DNA of 64,000 nucleotides from Halorussus halobius (GTDB lineage: Archaea; Halobacteriota; Halobacteria; Halobacteriales; Haladaptataceae), in contig NZ_ML219773.1 of assembly GCF_004765805.1 (NCBI RefSeq), forward strand, positions 868,001 to 932,000, given 5' to 3'. The position numbers and the translations under genes were made by a program. The notes under the pieces were generated by a model, which made no database searches, was not told where the DNA came from, and was given only the letters and a program-made list of their open reading frames with translations. This document shows positions 41,825-48,626 of this stretch, piece after piece; the first letter of the stretch is position 1, and each line of letters begins with the position of its first letter.

Positions 41825-42238
41825 CTCCCGACTCATCGTTATCCCCTCGCTGCCGTCCTCGTAGTAGTCCGCGACGCGACCCACTTCCGCGAAGCCCAGC
41901 GACTCGTACAGTCGTCGGGCGGCGTCGTTGTCGGGGTGGACCGTGAGCCGAATTTCGGAACACCCCGCCGCGCGAAGGCGGTCGCAGGCGGCCGCAAGCA
42001 GTCGTTTCGCTCGGCCCGCCCGACGGTGCGCCGGCTCGACGACGATCTCCGCGACGTATCCCGTTTCGTCGTCGTGGAAGGCCGCGAGGTAGCCGACCGG
42101 CGTGCCCTCCGCGGTCGAGACCAGAACGAGCGGTGGCCCGTCGACGGCGTACGCCAGCAGGGCGGGATTCGGCTCCCGGAGGTTGGTCTGGATGGCGCGC
42201 AGGCGCTCGCGGTCACCGGCCTCGGCCGCTCGAATCAC
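41810..42238 (-). CDS. GNAT-family N-acetyltransferase (RimI-like)
   Basis: 142 residues from GTG. It contains the acetyl-CoA loop VVEPAHRRAGRAKRLLAAA and the C-terminal motif HPDNDAARRLYESLGFAEVG with the conserved Tyr/Phe. Substrate unknown; RimI-like N-terminal protein acetylation is possible. Its GTG overlaps the stop of the upstream DUF92 gene by four bases, so the two are co-translated. Confidence 0.87.
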   Translation of the reverse strand: MIRAAEAGDRERLRAIQTNLREPNPALLAYAVDGPPLVLVSTAEGTPVGYLAAFHDDETGYVAEIVVEPAHRRAGRAKRLLAAACDRLRAAGCSEIRLTVHPDNDAARRLYESLGFAEVGRVADYYEDGSEGITMSRELGRA

Positions 42239-43545
42239 GGCAACGCGACCACCGCGAGGCCCGCGCCGACGAGCGCGCCCGTGAGCGTGGCGAGGAAGTT
42301 GACGCCCTGATTGCCCAGCGCGTCGCCTTCGAGGGTCGCGCCGAGCAGGCTGTCGGTCGTCATCCCGGCCACGCCCGCCGCGACGACGACCGCCGCGCCC
42401 GTCGGGTCCACGCTGTCGAACAGCGCGAACGCGATGGCCGCGACGACCGCCGCGCCCGCGAGCCCCGCGAGTTCGCCCTGCCACGTCACCGCGCCGTCGG
42501 TCCCGGGGTCGACGGGTTCGAGCGTGGTGACCAGCCGAGGGTCGTCGAACACGCCGCCGATTTCGCTGGAGAGGGTGTCGCTCATCGCGGTGGCGACCGA
42601 GCCGGTGAACGCGAACAGGAACAGCTCGCCCGGCACCGGGAGCCGGCCGCGCGCAGCGTACGCCAGCACCGCCGCCAGCGCGACCGCCGCGTTGCCGAGC
42701 ACGTTGCCGGTGCCGCGGGCACCCTCGTTGTCCTCGGCGACGCCGCGGGCCTGCTTTTGCTCGTAGCGGAACTTGGTCGAGAGGCTGCCGACGCCGAAGA
42801 AGGCGATGAGGACGGCGAACCACGCGTAGCCCCCGAGCACGATGGTCAGCACCGCCAGCAGCGCGCCGGTCATCATCCCCGGGATGGAGGCGGCGTCGAG
42901 CGCCCACGAGACGTAGCCGAACAGCGCGCTCACGACGATGGCGACCGCGACGCCCTCGACGGTCACGACCACCGTGAGGTCGGCGAACAGCCACAGCAGC
43001 AGCGCGACCGAGAGGACCACCAGCGGGTCGTCGCGGGCGAACAGCACCGACCGGAGCAGCCCCGCCAGCATCGCGCCGCTGGCCGCGAGGAAGACGAGTT
43101 CCGGCAGCGCGGGCGCGACGGCGACGCCCTCGACGGTCAGCACGGCGAGTTGCCCGGCGGTGGCCGCGGCCAGTCCGCCGGCGACGAACGCGCCCGTCCG
43201 GACGATGGCGTCGGCGTCGAACCGCGACGCGACTTGGTGGGCCAGATTGCCGTAGCCGACCACGAGGACGCTGGCGACGAAGACGTGGGTCGGCAGGCGG
43301 GCGAACAGCGCGAGGAGCGCGACGCCCGTGGCGGCGAAGCCGAAGGCCGCGAGCCCGTGGAGTCGCCCCGCCTGCCGGTCGGCGGGCCGGGCGAACAGTT
43401 CGAACGCCGGTCCGTCGGTGACCGACAGCGCGAGGACCGCTATCGCGCCGAACGCTCCGGCGGTGGCCCATCCGAACATCGGGGCGGCCAGCGACAGGGT
43501 GGCCACTGCGGCGAACGCCGCCGCGCGCCGAACTCTGGAGGTCAC
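42235..43545 (-). CDS. DUF92/VTE6-like membrane protein
   Basis: 436 residues from GTG, about 11-12 membrane helices in two parts. The C-terminal half carries the DUF92 hallmarks: FFGVGSLSTKFRYEQKQARG, GTGNVLGNAA, SVATAMSDTLSSEIGGV, GVAGMTTDSLLGATLEG. Plant VTE6 of this family is a phytyl-phosphate kinase, and the archaeal role is unknown but probably also acts on isoprenoid phosphates. Co-directional with MFS upstream and GNAT downstream; cis-prenyltransferase genes lie 4 kb away. Confidence 0.85.
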   Translation of the reverse strand: MTSRVRRAAAFAAVATLSLAAPMFGWATAGAFGAIAVLALSVTDGPAFELFARPADRQAGRLHGLAAFGFAATGVALLALFARLPTHVFVASVLVVGYGNLAHQVASRFDADAIVRTGAFVAGGLAAATAGQLAVLTVEGVAVAPALPELVFLAASGAMLAGLLRSVLFARDDPLVVLSVALLLWLFADLTVVVTVEGVAVAIVVSALFGYVSWALDAASIPGMMTGALLAVLTIVLGGYAWFAVLIAFFGVGSLSTKFRYEQKQARGVAEDNEGARGTGNVLGNAAVALAAVLAYAARGRLPVPGELFLFAFTGSVATAMSDTLSSEIGGVFDDPRLVTTLEPVDPGTDGAVTWQGELAGLAGAAVVAAIAFALFDSVDPTGAAVVVAAGVAGMTTDSLLGATLEGDALGNQGVNFLATLTGALVGAGLAVVALP

Positions 43546-43667: not shown

Positions 43668-45017
43668 TCACCGATACGCGTCGAACTCCTCGCCGAACAG
43701 CAGGAAGTAACCGGTGCCGACGACGCCGATTACCGCCGCGAGCGTGAACGCGACCTCCGGGCTGACGAAGTCCCAGAGGTAGCCTCCCAGCGCCGCGCTC
43801 GGAACGACGACCGCGTTCCGGAGCAGATAGTAGGTGCCGGTGACTCGCCCGCCGGCGTCCCGTTCGGCCGGGCCGACGATGAGCGCCTTGTGGGAGGGCA
43901 GCCCGGCGAATCGGAGGCCGGAGAACGCGAAGATCGCCACCATCGCCCACTGGAGGGAGACTGCCGGAGCGAGCACTTCGGGGCCCGCGATGAGGACGAC
44001 GGGGAACACGCCGTAGACGAGGAACCCGAGCGCGACGATAGGCTTGAGACCGACGCGCTCGGCGAGCTTGGCGGCCGGTGCCATCGTGAGCAGCGCGACC
44101 AGCATCTCCACGCCCAGCAGGTAGCCGAAGAACGCTTCCGGGGAGACGTCCACCGCGTAGGAGAACTCGCCCAGCGCCAGCGTGGCCTCGAAGCCGACCT
44201 CGTAGAACTGCGTGACCACCAGCACGAAGAACACGTACACCATCCCGTTCGCGAACCGGACCAGCGTGTCGCCCACCAGGAGCGGCCGGAGTTCGTCGGG
44301 CATCTCCCGGAGGTCGCGCCGAATCCCGTCGAGACCCTCGAAGCTGTCGCCGACGGTGTCCTCGCTGGCGTCGTAGAGGACGTGCTGGACGACCGTCCCG
44401 ATTGCTCCGAAGACGACTGCGACGGCAAGCACGTACTGGAAGCTCACCGTGAACGCGGGATGGAACCCGATCAGAACGGCCGCGAGCACGGGGCCGACGA
44501 GGAAGGCGGTCCGGCGGAACGTCTCGGTGCTGGCGAACCCGGCCGCCAGCTTCGAGGGCTCGGTCGCCTGCTTGACGACCGCGAACGTCGCGCCGAGGCC
44601 GAACGACTTCCACGCCTGAGCGAGCAGCAGACCGACGAATATCCAGACCCACGGGTCGACGGTGACCCCGCCCACCGAGAGCGCGCCGACCGCGGGCGCG
44701 ACGAGCCAGAACGCGAACCCGAGCGTCGAGAGGAGCCCGAACAGCGTCAGCGCGTATCGGGAGCCCAGCCGGTCGGAGACGGTACCGCCCGGGTAGGGAT
44801 ACACCGCGGAGATGACGTTGCCGACCGTCCCGTACAGGCCGACGACGAATCCCGAAGCGCCCAGCGCCGCCATGTACTCGGGCAGGTAGCGGCTGGTCAT
44901 CTGGAAGCCGAGGCTGAACGCGAACATCGCGGCCGAAAGGACCAGCACGTCGCGTTCGAGTGCGAAGAACTGGTGGAACGGGTCGAGTACGCTTCTGGAC
45001 TCGTCCTCGGCGACCAT
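43668..45017 (-). CDS. MFS transporter
   Basis: 449 residues, 12 membrane helices. The conserved loop between helices 2 and 3 appears as GGTVSDRLGSRYAL; the central loop (about 190-225) is acidic, with SEDTVGDSFEGLDGIRRDL. The substrate is unknown; it resembles drug or small-molecule exporters. The start MVAEDESRSV fits the beginning of helix 1. It is 122 bases upstream of the DUF92 gene and may be in one transcript with it. Confidence 0.88.
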   Translation of the reverse strand: MVAEDESRSVLDPFHQFFALERDVLVLSAAMFAFSLGFQMTSRYLPEYMAALGASGFVVGLYGTVGNVISAVYPYPGGTVSDRLGSRYALTLFGLLSTLGFAFWLVAPAVGALSVGGVTVDPWVWIFVGLLLAQAWKSFGLGATFAVVKQATEPSKLAAGFASTETFRRTAFLVGPVLAAVLIGFHPAFTVSFQYVLAVAVVFGAIGTVVQHVLYDASEDTVGDSFEGLDGIRRDLREMPDELRPLLVGDTLVRFANGMVYVFFVLVVTQFYEVGFEATLALGEFSYAVDVSPEAFFGYLLGVEMLVALLTMAPAAKLAERVGLKPIVALGFLVYGVFPVVLIAGPEVLAPAVSLQWAMVAIFAFSGLRFAGLPSHKALIVGPAERDAGGRVTGTYYLLRNAVVVPSAALGGYLWDFVSPEVAFTLAAVIGVVGTGYFLLFGEEFDAYR

Positions 45018-45090
45018 TCTCGGGTCGAGGTTCGGAGGTGAATCAATTATGCTTTGCCGTGCGGACGGTCGCGGGCGCGCCAGTGTTGGG

Positions 45091-45100
45091 AAATATATTT
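45091..45100 (+). promoter_or_regulatory. TATA box before two mini-ORFs and the arylsulfotransferase-like gene
   Basis: AAATATATTT, centred 29 bases before the ATG at 45125. It predicts transcription starting at the first mini-ORF and leaves about 125 transcribed bases before the main gene. Confidence 0.6.
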
Positions 45101-45124
45101 GCGCCTCGCCGGCGTAGCCCGGCC

Positions 45125-45187
45125 ATGCGCGCTTCTGACGGGGGGACCGACGAATCGAGCGGCCGCGAACCTCGCGGGGAACAGTGA
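45125..45187 (+). CDS. Leader mini-ORF 1, 20 aa
   Basis: Leaderless ATG by its spacing to the TATA box. The 20-residue product (starting MRASDGGTDESS) has no motif. Its TGA overlaps the ATG of the next mini-ORF (TGATG). Likely a leader that moves ribosomes to the main gene. Confidence 0.35.
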   Translation: MRASDGGTDESSGREPRGEQ

Positions 45188-45255
45188 TGGCCGTGCGAGC
45201 AGCGCCGGCATCCGAGCGACGTCGCCGACGCGACCGACTCCGACCCGACGAATGA
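45187..45255 (+). CDS. Leader mini-ORF 2, 22 aa
   Basis: Begins inside the stop of mini-ORF 1 and ends by a 4-base ATGA overlap with the start at 45252. The product is Arg-rich (MAVRAAPASERRRRRDRLRP); runs of Arg codons could slow ribosomes. No known family. Confidence 0.35.
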   Translation: MAVRAAPASERRRRRDRLRPDE

Positions 45256-46721
45256 CGGGAGACACGAAGCGACGGCTCCGAATCGCGTTCGTCGCACTGC
45301 TCGCGCTCTCGGTCGTCGGCGTCGGCTACGGCCTCGCCACCTCGTGGACCGACACGACCGTCGAGTCCCACCTCGACGGCGACGGCGTCGACCCGACCGC
45401 CGAGGTCGCGCCCGACGCCGACGGCGTCACCGTCGTCGCGACCGACTCGAACTCGTGGCGGGGCGAGGCCAGCGAGGGCCCCCGCGCCCGGGCGGAACTC
45501 GTCGGCATCAACCCGAACGGGACGGTCCGCTACTACGACGACGCCCACACGCGCTACTGGGACGTCGACCCCGTGGCCGGCACCGACGCCACCGTCGAGT
45601 ACTCGTACGCCGACCACCGCGAGGGCGAGGCCTGTCCCGACGCCGACGAGTGGGACCCCGGCGACTACGGCGTCGACGAGGTGACGTGGGACACCTACTA
45701 CGAGAGCCACGACGAGGCCGGCGCGTGTACGTACAACGGCGTCGAGCGCGCCAACCTCACGACCGGCGAGACCGAGCAGGTGTGGGGCCACCTCACGCCC
45801 GGCAAGGAGTCCTCGCGGTACCACGACGTCGACCGGGTCAACGACACCCACCTCGTGGTCGCGGACATCTACCTCGACGGCGCGTTCGGCGTCGACACCA
45901 CCGCCGACGAGGTGGCGTGGCGCTGGAACGCCTCCGACGCCTACGACACGGACGCCACGGGCGGCCCGTACCCCGAGGACTGGTCGCACATCAACGACGT
46001 CGAGTTGCTCGCCGACGGGCGCATCATGGTGAGCGCCCGGAACCACGACCGCGTCCTCTTTCTGACCGCCGAGGACCGAACCCTCGACGAGGAGTGGACG
46101 CTGGGCAGCGAGGACGAGTACGACGTCCTCTACGAGCAGCACAATCCCGACTTCGTGAACGAGTCGAACGGCGGGCCGGCCGCCGTCGTCGCCGACAGCG
46201 AGAACAACCGGGTGGTCGAGTACCGGCGCGAGGCCGACGGGACGTGGACCCAGTCGTGGCTCTGGCGCGACGCCCGGATGCAGTGGGCCCGGGACGCCGA
46301 CCGGCTTCCGAACGGCCATACGCTGATCTCGGACTCGAACGGCAACCGCGTGTTCGAGGTCGACGAGGACGGCGAGGTGGTCTGGAGCCTCAACATCGCG
46401 TTCCCCTACGAGGCCGAGCGTCTGGGGACGGGCGACGAGTCCGCCGGGGGCCCGAGCGCGCGCTCGGCCGACCTCGCCTCGCGCACCGGAACCGCAGGCG
46501 ACCGGTTCTGGATAACGGTCAAGAGCGTCGTGCCCGGCAAGTACCTCAACGGGCTGATGTACGTCACGCCGGTCTGGATGGGGTTCCCGGAGGTGGTCGC
46601 GACCGCGTTCGGCGGGCTGGTCGCGCTCGTCTGGGGCGTCCTCGAAGCGCGGTGGTATCGCGCCCGCCACCGCACGAGCCCCGCGGACGGCTCGGACGAG
46701 CGCGCGACCGACGACGACTGA
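45252..46721 (+). CDS. Arylsulfotransferase (ASST)-like membrane-anchored protein
   Basis: 489 residues. N-terminal helix (RIAFVALLALSVVGVGYGLA) and a second hydrophobic segment near the C-terminus (VVATAFGGLVALVWGVL) bracket a beta-propeller domain exposed outside the cell. Repeated Trp/His-rich blades include YHDVDRVNDTHLVVAD, DWSHINDVELLADGRIMVS and DADRLPNGHTLISDSNGNRV, as in ASST and related proteins. Whether it transfers sulfate is not shown; several propeller residues could fit other enzymes. It is preceded by two mini-ORFs. Confidence 0.75.
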   Translation: MTGDTKRRLRIAFVALLALSVVGVGYGLATSWTDTTVESHLDGDGVDPTAEVAPDADGVTVVATDSNSWRGEASEGPRARAELVGINPNGTVRYYDDAHTRYWDVDPVAGTDATVEYSYADHREGEACPDADEWDPGDYGVDEVTWDTYYESHDEAGACTYNGVERANLTTGETEQVWGHLTPGKESSRYHDVDRVNDTHLVVADIYLDGAFGVDTTADEVAWRWNASDAYDTDATGGPYPEDWSHINDVELLADGRIMVSARNHDRVLFLTAEDRTLDEEWTLGSEDEYDVLYEQHNPDFVNESNGGPAAVVADSENNRVVEYRREADGTWTQSWLWRDARMQWARDADRLPNGHTLISDSNGNRVFEVDEDGEVVWSLNIAFPYEAERLGTGDESAGGPSARSADLASRTGTAGDRFWITVKSVVPGKYLNGLMYVTPVWMGFPEVVATAFGGLVALVWGVLEARWYRARHRTSPADGSDERATDDD

Positions 46722-46772: not shown

Positions 46773-47381
46773 GTGGGACTGTACGACCGCTACCTCGCCG
46801 CCCGCCTCCGGCGGCGCGAGCCCGCGCCGCCGAGCCACGTCGCCGTCATCGTCACCGAGCGCGACCTGCTCGAACAGGGCGCATACGCCACCCTGGAGGC
46901 GTTCTTCGAGTGGGCGTTCGAGTACGGAGCCCAGCGCGTGACCGTGTACGTCAGCGTGCTCGACCCCGCGGCCGCGCCGACGCTCCGCCGGGAACTCGAA
47001 GGGGTGTCGGCCCCGCGAACGCTCGCGGTCCGGGGGCCCGAGGACACCCAGCGCGCCGACGCGCCCATCCAGGTGTCCATCGGCCTGGGCGGCAAACACG
47101 AGTTCGCGGGCGCGGTCCGGAAGATAGCCGAGGACGTGCAGGCGGGCGAGCTCGACGCCGAACAGGTCGACGAGCGCGAGGTCGAGAACTACCTCGTGTT
47201 CCCCGAGAATCCGGACCTGGTCATCAAGACCGGCGCGGAGCGGCTCTCGGACTTCATGATATGGCAGTCGGTGTACTCGGAGCTGTACTTTACCGACGTG
47301 AACTGGCGGGACTTCCGGAAGCGCGATTACCTCCGGGCGCTGCTCGACTACGAGAGCCGCCAGCGTCGGTTCGGCCAGTAG
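46773..47381 (+). CDS. cis-Prenyltransferase paralogue lacking the catalytic Asp (NgBR-like subunit)
   Basis: 202 residues from GTG. The UPP-synthase fold is recognisable (HVAVI at 22-26, NPDLVIKTGAERLSDFMIWQ, LYFTDVNWRDFRKRDYLRAL) but the catalytic DGN after HVAVI is replaced by TER, so Thr28 stands where Asp is required. It retains the C-terminal RxG (RRFGQ, 198-202) that completes the active site in dimeric cis-prenyltransferases. Together with the convergent uppS-type gene it probably forms a two-subunit enzyme. GTG at 46773 gives the normal N-terminus. Confidence 0.83.
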   Translation: MGLYDRYLAARLRRREPAPPSHVAVIVTERDLLEQGAYATLEAFFEWAFEYGAQRVTVYVSVLDPAAAPTLRRELEGVSAPRTLAVRGPEDTQRADAPIQVSIGLGGKHEFAGAVRKIAEDVQAGELDAEQVDEREVENYLVFPENPDLVIKTGAERLSDFMIWQSVYSELYFTDVNWRDFRKRDYLRALLDYESRQRRFGQ

Positions 47382-47382
47382 G

Positions 47383-48306
47383 TCACTCCACGGAGGTCCC
47401 GTCGCTCTCGACCTCCAGTTCCTCGACGCTCGGGTCCTCGGGGAGCGTGCCCCGGAACCGCTCGATGATGGCCCGAGCCTCGGCCAGCTCCGCGCCGCCG
47501 AGCGCCCTCACCAGCGCGAGCGCGCGCTCGGCCCGCGTGCGCCGCCACGACTCCTCGCGGGACTCGTAGGTCCGGACCGCCCGCAGGAAGTCGACCTTCG
47601 AGAACTCCGGCCAGTAGGGCGTACAGAAGAAGACGGCGGCCTCGTTGCCGTTGGCGTGCCACGGCAGGAAGTTCGACGTGCGCTCGTCCCCGCCGGTCCG
47701 GATGATGAGGTCGACGTCCCGGACCGGGCGGTCGTAGATGCGGTCCTCGATTTCGGCGACGTCGACGTCCTCGATGTCGAGGTCGCCGTCCTCGACCGCG
47801 CGGGCCACCTCGCGGGCCGCGCCGAGGAGTTCGTTCCGACCCCCGTACGCCAGCGCGACGTTGAGCGTGAACTCGTCGTAGTCGGCCGTCCGACGCTCGG
47901 CGTAGTCGATGGCCTCCCGGACGCGGCCGGGAAGCCGGTCGACGTCGCCGATGGCCCGAATGCACACCCCGCCGTCGTGGACGCGGTCGTCGTCGGCGAA
48001 CTCGTAGAGTTTGTCCTCCAGCAGGTCGAACAGGACCTCGCGCTGGTCTTTCGGTCGGTCGAAGTTCTCGGTCGAGAAGGCGTACAGCGTCAGCTCCTCG
48101 ACCCCCATCTCCTTGCACCAGTCGAGCACCCGCTCGGTCGTCCGCGCCCCGGCGTGATAGCCGTCGTGAGCGTCCCCGCCCCGCTGGGTGGCGTACCGTC
48201 GGTTCCCGTCCTGAATCACGGCGACGTGCGTCGGCGCGCCCGAAATCTCCCGCTCGAGGAGCCGTTCGTACGCGACCCCCGCACGCTGCCGTAGCCACTC
48301 GAACAT
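47383..48306 (-). CDS. uppS: cis-Prenyltransferase (undecaprenyl diphosphate synthase family), catalytic-type
   Basis: 307 residues. The diphosphate-binding HVAVIQDGNRRY (27-38, Asp33) is intact, as are AFSTENFDRPKDQ, ALAYGGRNEL, VDLIIRTGGDERTSNFLPW and PEFSKVDFLRAVRTYESRE. It condenses isopentenyl units to polyprenyl diphosphate, the precursor of dolichol-type glycosylation carriers. After ESRE the sequence is ESWRRTRAER, without the RxG triplet, and ends in a ~55-residue extension. It ends one base from the stop of the convergent paralogue. Confidence 0.92.
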   Translation of the reverse strand: MFEWLRQRAGVAYERLLEREISGAPTHVAVIQDGNRRYATQRGGDAHDGYHAGARTTERVLDWCKEMGVEELTLYAFSTENFDRPKDQREVLFDLLEDKLYEFADDDRVHDGGVCIRAIGDVDRLPGRVREAIDYAERRTADYDEFTLNVALAYGGRNELLGAAREVARAVEDGDLDIEDVDVAEIEDRIYDRPVRDVDLIIRTGGDERTSNFLPWHANGNEAAVFFCTPYWPEFSKVDFLRAVRTYESREESWRRTRAERALALVRALGGAELAEARAIIERFRGTLPEDPSVEELEVESDGTSVE

Positions 48307-48431: not shown

Positions 48432-48626
48432 ATGGCGAAAGGTACGGTCGATTTCTTCAACGACACTGGCGGTTACGGATTCATCGACACCGAGGACTCG
48501 GAGGAAGACGTCTTCTTCCACATGGAAGACGTCGGCGGTCCCGACCTCGAAGAGGGGCAGGAAGTCGAGTTCGACATCGAACAGGCCGACAAGGGACCGC
48601 GCGCGACGAACCTCACGCGTCTGTAG
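48432..48626 (+). CDS. cspA: Cold-shock domain protein
   Basis: 64 residues, one complete cold-shock domain. RNP1 (GGYGFIDT) and RNP2 (DVFFHM) are both present; the acidic EDSEEDVFFHMED and EEGQEVEFD regions fit halophile adaptation. Binds single-stranded RNA/DNA and acts as an RNA chaperone. Own TATA box; no operon. Followed by a T-rich stretch (GATTTTCTTGG) that may end transcription. Confidence 0.93.
   Translation: MAKGTVDFFNDTGGYGFIDTEDSEEDVFFHMEDVGGPDLEEGQEVEFDIEQADKGPRATNLTRL

Follow-up and report, generated by a model that had tools for sequence, protein, structure and literature searches.

Heteromeric cis-prenyltransferases (cPTs) are an enzyme kind that is already known, and the best-known case is the human complex of DHDDS and NgBR (NUS1). 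In this complex the RxG motif of NgBR extends into the active site of DHDDS, and a dependence of the activity on RxG was reported (PMC7573591). A heteromer was also described for Methanosarcina mazei, where MM_0618 and MM_1083 form C45-50 products that likely serve a glycosyl carrier (Emi et al. 2019, as cited in PMC8131916). In the homodimeric UppS of bacteria such as Escherichia coli and Bacillus subtilis both DGN and RxG are encoded in one gene. Moreover, not all cPTs strictly require RxG. The homodimeric MM_0014, which ends in TLGG and lacks RxG, is active (PMC8131916), and in yeast Nus1 the Arg of RxG is replaced by Asn (PMC7839719, PMC7573591).

The pair described here, from the haloarchaeon Halorussus halobius, shares fold, family and motifs with bacterial UppS but divides DGN and RxG between two genes. 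The product of the minus-strand gene (catalytic subunit) resembles human DHDDS in the presence of DGN, the absence of RxG and a predicted helical C-terminal extension. The product of the plus-strand gene (partner) resembles NgBR since it lacks DGN and carries a C-terminal RxG. Unlike NgBR, which has an N-terminal membrane domain, the 202-aa partner is without one. M. mazei belongs to the same phylum and also has two such paralogues; its C45-50 product and biochemistry were measured, whereas the H. halobius pair is a predicted enzyme. Judged by clade membership, the two pairs are presumably orthologous. The MM_0014/MA1831-type enzymes stem from the same phylum and lack RxG as well, but they are homodimeric, end in TLGG, fall outside the catalytic clade and are absent from this genome.

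Results

We analyzed a stretch of 64,000 nucleotides (the window), to which all positions in Table 1 refer. Both proteins are cPT homologues (PF01255). The catalytic subunit matches almost the full Pfam profile (E 5.6e-67; TIGR00055 1.4e-67) and the partner only the C-terminal half (E 3.7e-28). The initial annotation had proposed a convergent cPT pair, and the two open reading frames were found exactly as it placed them, with one base between the TAG of the partner gene (47379-47381) and the opposing stop (47383-47385). It had also read a DGN after HVAVI and no RxG after ESRE on the minus strand, and TER in place of DGN with an RRFG end on the plus strand. The alignment bore this out: the catalytic subunit contains HVAVIQDGNRR and later YESREESWRR with SWR in the RxG columns, and the partner contains HVAVIVTERD with TER in the DGN columns and ends in SRQRRFGQ directly before the stop. 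Accordingly, neither protein of the pair combines DGN and RxG within one chain as homodimeric UppS does. A PF01255 search covering the entire genome (3.93 Mb; completeness 99.99%) returned these two cPT genes only; a third, ordinary UppS was absent. The closest named relatives are Halorussus species (88% identity in the case of the partner), and orthologues of the partner in 80 haloarchaeal loci are 69-88% identical. Upstream of the catalytic gene lies a divergent gene for a cold-shock-domain protein (48432-48626, plus strand), which has a homologue in 21 of the 80 haloarchaeal loci.

Table 1. Features of the cPT locus of H. halobius and its neighbourhood (positions in the window)
Feature	Position	Strand	Remarks
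Partner subunit gene	46773..47381	+	GTG start, 202 aa; predicted non-catalytic, NgBR/Nus1-like cPT
Catalytic subunit gene	47383..48306	-	307 aa; DHDDS-like cPT
TER at DGN position of partner, residues 28-30	46854..46862	+	Alignment columns
RxG motif (RFG), partner residues 199-201 of 202	47367..47375	+	Alignment columns
DGN catalytic triplet, residues 33-35 of catalytic subunit	48202..48210	-	Alignment columns
SWR at RxG columns, residues 253-255 of catalytic subunit	47542..47550	-	Alignment and model; within predicted helix 237-269
C-terminal extension of catalytic subunit, residues 256-307	47386..47541	-	Predicted: long helix ends, followed by a turn, helix 274-284 and a disordered tail
DUF92 membrane protein gene (PF01940)	42235..43533	-	Putative polyprenol/isoprenoid kinase; usually stands divergently beside the partner gene
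MFS gene	43668-45041		Between DUF92 and partner gene
Arylsulfotransferase-like gene	45054-46721		Between DUF92 and partner gene

The complementary motifs were investigated in an alignment of 150 catalytic and 140 partner sequences, all distinct, whose loci were collected by a Pfam search of the order and phylum and by similarity. The complementarity claimed in the initial annotation holds throughout. In the alignment columns DGN is found in 148/150 catalytic sequences but in 0/140 partners; the two remaining catalytic sequences lie on truncated or frameshifted contigs. Conversely, an in-register RxG occurs in 0/150 catalytic sequences and in 139/140 partners, with KFG in the last one. Since the division holds in aligned relatives, chance or misread frames can be ruled out as the source of the pattern. 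A DGN protein with a normal, in-register RxG, which the initial annotation had named as the counter-example to look for, was encountered neither among the 150 catalytic sequences nor among the extra paralogues. Near misses in the catalytic set are L130 with RSG one residue out of register (its sister L174 has CSG) and L120 with RRVFG, an RxxG.

The partners lack DGN, the following Arg and the FSTEN..R segment and have kept a W-Q-S-x-Y-S-E stretch together with the C-terminal RxG; TER stands in the DGN columns of 91 of the 140. Among 79 diverse partner sequences 15 columns are invariant, including R196, R198 and G201 near the C-terminus. The KFG partner (L158:226-924, minus strand) belongs to a Methanosarcinaceae-like genome (G212) with two catalytic copies; these and the partner are members of the same clades as the H. 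halobius pair, and the genome also holds an MM_0014-like paralogue (L159). Five haloarchaeal genomes (G040, G065, G153, G173, G179) carry additional DGN paralogues, all without RxG. These extra copies are not located near the partner gene and would need either to share a single partner or to do without one. Besides, genome G003 encodes a third, very diverged haloarchaeal cPT (L198:414-1799, minus strand) with DGH for DGN and the end RRNEGR, which falls outside both clades.

Where both genes are linked they are convergent, namely in 70/70 haloarchaeal loci and in 16/16 linked pairs from eight further families. Elsewhere (Methanosarcinaceae-like f19, f21, f22, f25 and more) the two genes are separated or sit on separate contigs; the cPT genes of Methanosarcinaceae-like genomes are far apart, whereas those of H. 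halobius are adjacent and convergent. A link between DUF92 and uppS and a kinase role of DUF92 in isoprenoid metabolism were proposed earlier (PMC5898192). In the neighbourhoods that we inspected (L033-L112, L225-L243) DUF92 stands divergently beside the partner gene, not the catalytic gene, in 73/80 haloarchaeal loci and in families f18, f21, f23, f25, f28, f31 and f32. The uppS gene linked to DUF92 is thus the one predicted to encode the non-catalytic helper subunit, which is new for this neighbourhood.

At least two PF01255 matches were detected in 188/195 genomes of the order, and the other seven are incomplete assemblies except for G178. This genome (99% complete, 120 contigs) contains the partner gene (C24:42315-42977), and the catalytic gene was undetected, possibly owing to a gap between contigs. 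In 296 Halobacteriota genomes with a completeness of at least 85% the partner profile matched 293; three of these matches are weak (G270, G341, G305; 86-89% complete), so that a catalytic gene alone is possible there. Both subunits therefore occur in the same genomes, with few exceptions that are mostly incomplete assemblies. The two-part design is an old and almost universal feature of Halobacteriota and no haloarchaeal speciality.

The three genomes without a partner-profile match all belong to family f24. Searches with Pfam and both of our own profiles revealed no cPT in five f24 genomes of two genera (G201, G209, G245, G246, G247), and a detection failure was rejected on these grounds. STT3 (oligosaccharyltransferase) is missing in four of the five as well, and DUF92 is retained. 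The two subunits are hence absent together, and mostly along with the pathway they would serve; in draft genomes that are 75-91% complete this is supportive, not proof. These organisms may have no N-glycosylation or may use a different carrier.

Maximum-likelihood analysis grouped all catalytic sequences in a single clade (99/94) and all partners in a second one (100/100). Therefore, the split most likely predates the diversification of Halobacteriota. The MM_0014-like paralogue with its TLGG end falls outside the catalytic clade; L159 matches MM_0014 at 5e-80.

Single-chain models of both subunits were calculated with AlphaFold2. The partner model (pLDDT 87.8) shows the cPT fold. In the model of the catalytic subunit (pLDDT 87.9) a continuous helix, residues 237-269, runs through the RxG position; the second helix, 274-284, is less confident, and confidence drops below 70 after about residue 270. 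The predicted C-terminal extension resembles the helix-turn-helix of DHDDS in position (PMC7573591). A comparison with DHDDS/NgBR and E. coli UppS, also proposed in the initial annotation, placed the catalytic subunit slightly closer to the human protein: the profile of the catalytic alignment matches human DHDDS best (1.4e-73, N-terminal helix included) and E. coli UppS at 8.8e-71, and the six best PDB fold matches of the model in Foldseek are human DHDDS chains.

Similarities to the eukaryotic enzyme extend to the partner: the alignment of NUS1 with the partner profile spans the full length, with VITE over VITE at the DGN position. In trees without Asgard or TACK sequences DHDDS groups with the archaeal catalytic clade at 92/85, and at 90/43 once NUS1 is added. 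NUS1 has diverged much further (branch length about 4), and tree tests rejected neither a grouping of NUS1 with the partners (p 0.36) nor one of DHDDS with bacteria (p 0.41).

Discussion

The products of the two genes very probably assemble into a single heteromeric cis-polyprenyl diphosphate synthase. Of the proposal in the initial annotation, a haloarchaeal heteromer, the heteromer is much the best reading in view of the motif division, the pairing and the DHDDS-like fold; "haloarchaeal" understated the range of the pair, which extends across Halobacteriota. As would be expected for such an enzyme, the catalytic subunit possesses DGN and the substrate-binding Arg/Ser without RxG, and the partner possesses RxG without DGN. 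From this we infer complex formation, activity, trans-complementation, the product and its use. The minus-strand subunit would bind the allylic diphosphate, Mg2+ and isopentenyl diphosphate via DGN and the conserved Arg/Ser. The plus-strand subunit would have lost its own active site, and its C-terminal RRFGQ may cross the dimer interface and complete the active site of the catalytic subunit, as NgBR does for DHDDS. The predicted product is a long polyprenyl diphosphate of about C45-60, which would be turned into the sugar-carrier lipid for N-glycosylation.

Several observations count against the heteromer. The activity of MM_0014 with its TLGG end and the Asn of yeast Nus1 show that RxG is not indispensable in all cPTs (PMC8131916, PMC7839719, PMC7573591), and to these are added G178, with a partner gene and no catalytic gene detected, and the weak partner matches in G270, G341 and G305. 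The DGN protein could be a lone homodimer with an unusual C-terminus, comparable to MM_0014, and the partner a regulator or membrane anchor outside the active site. Active homodimeric cPTs lacking RxG do exist (PMC8131916), and the model gives the catalytic protein itself a long helical tail. Nevertheless, we consider this arrangement improbable. Of the 140 partner sequences 139 have kept R and G, although DGN is lost in every one, and such strict conservation of RxG in a dead enzyme is best explained by its use in trans. Moreover, the presumably orthologous M. mazei pair was reported to be heteromeric (PMC8131916), and family f24 is without both subunits together.

It is less probable still, to the point of being very unlikely, that the partner is an enzyme of some other, unrelated function and that the pairing is genomic only. 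The partner gene is linked to DUF92 as regularly as to the catalytic gene, but a role in the same pathway was predicted for DUF92 as well (PMC5898192). Prenyl transfer by the partner on its own is unlikely because the D of DGN, the following R and the FSTEN..R region are lost. The same loss of catalytic residues might suggest a decaying paralogue, a pseudogene whose pattern reflects drift. This explanation is hardly credible given the 15 invariant columns in 79 sequences and the presence of the partner in nearly every genome.

The archaeal and eukaryotic divisions could go back to one ancient event; the dolichol synthase of eukaryotes would then be a heteromer inherited from archaea. We put this forward tentatively, as a possibility that we lean somewhat against.

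The known heteromers of human and M. mazei are here extended by a split that is most likely ancient and is nearly universal in Halobacteriota. Two genes that automatic annotation would both call undecaprenyl diphosphate synthases become one predicted two-part enzyme throughout the phylum, and the catalytic and the helper gene are now assigned by prediction. The pair may offer a simple and apparently soluble system to study the mechanism of DHDDS/NgBR.
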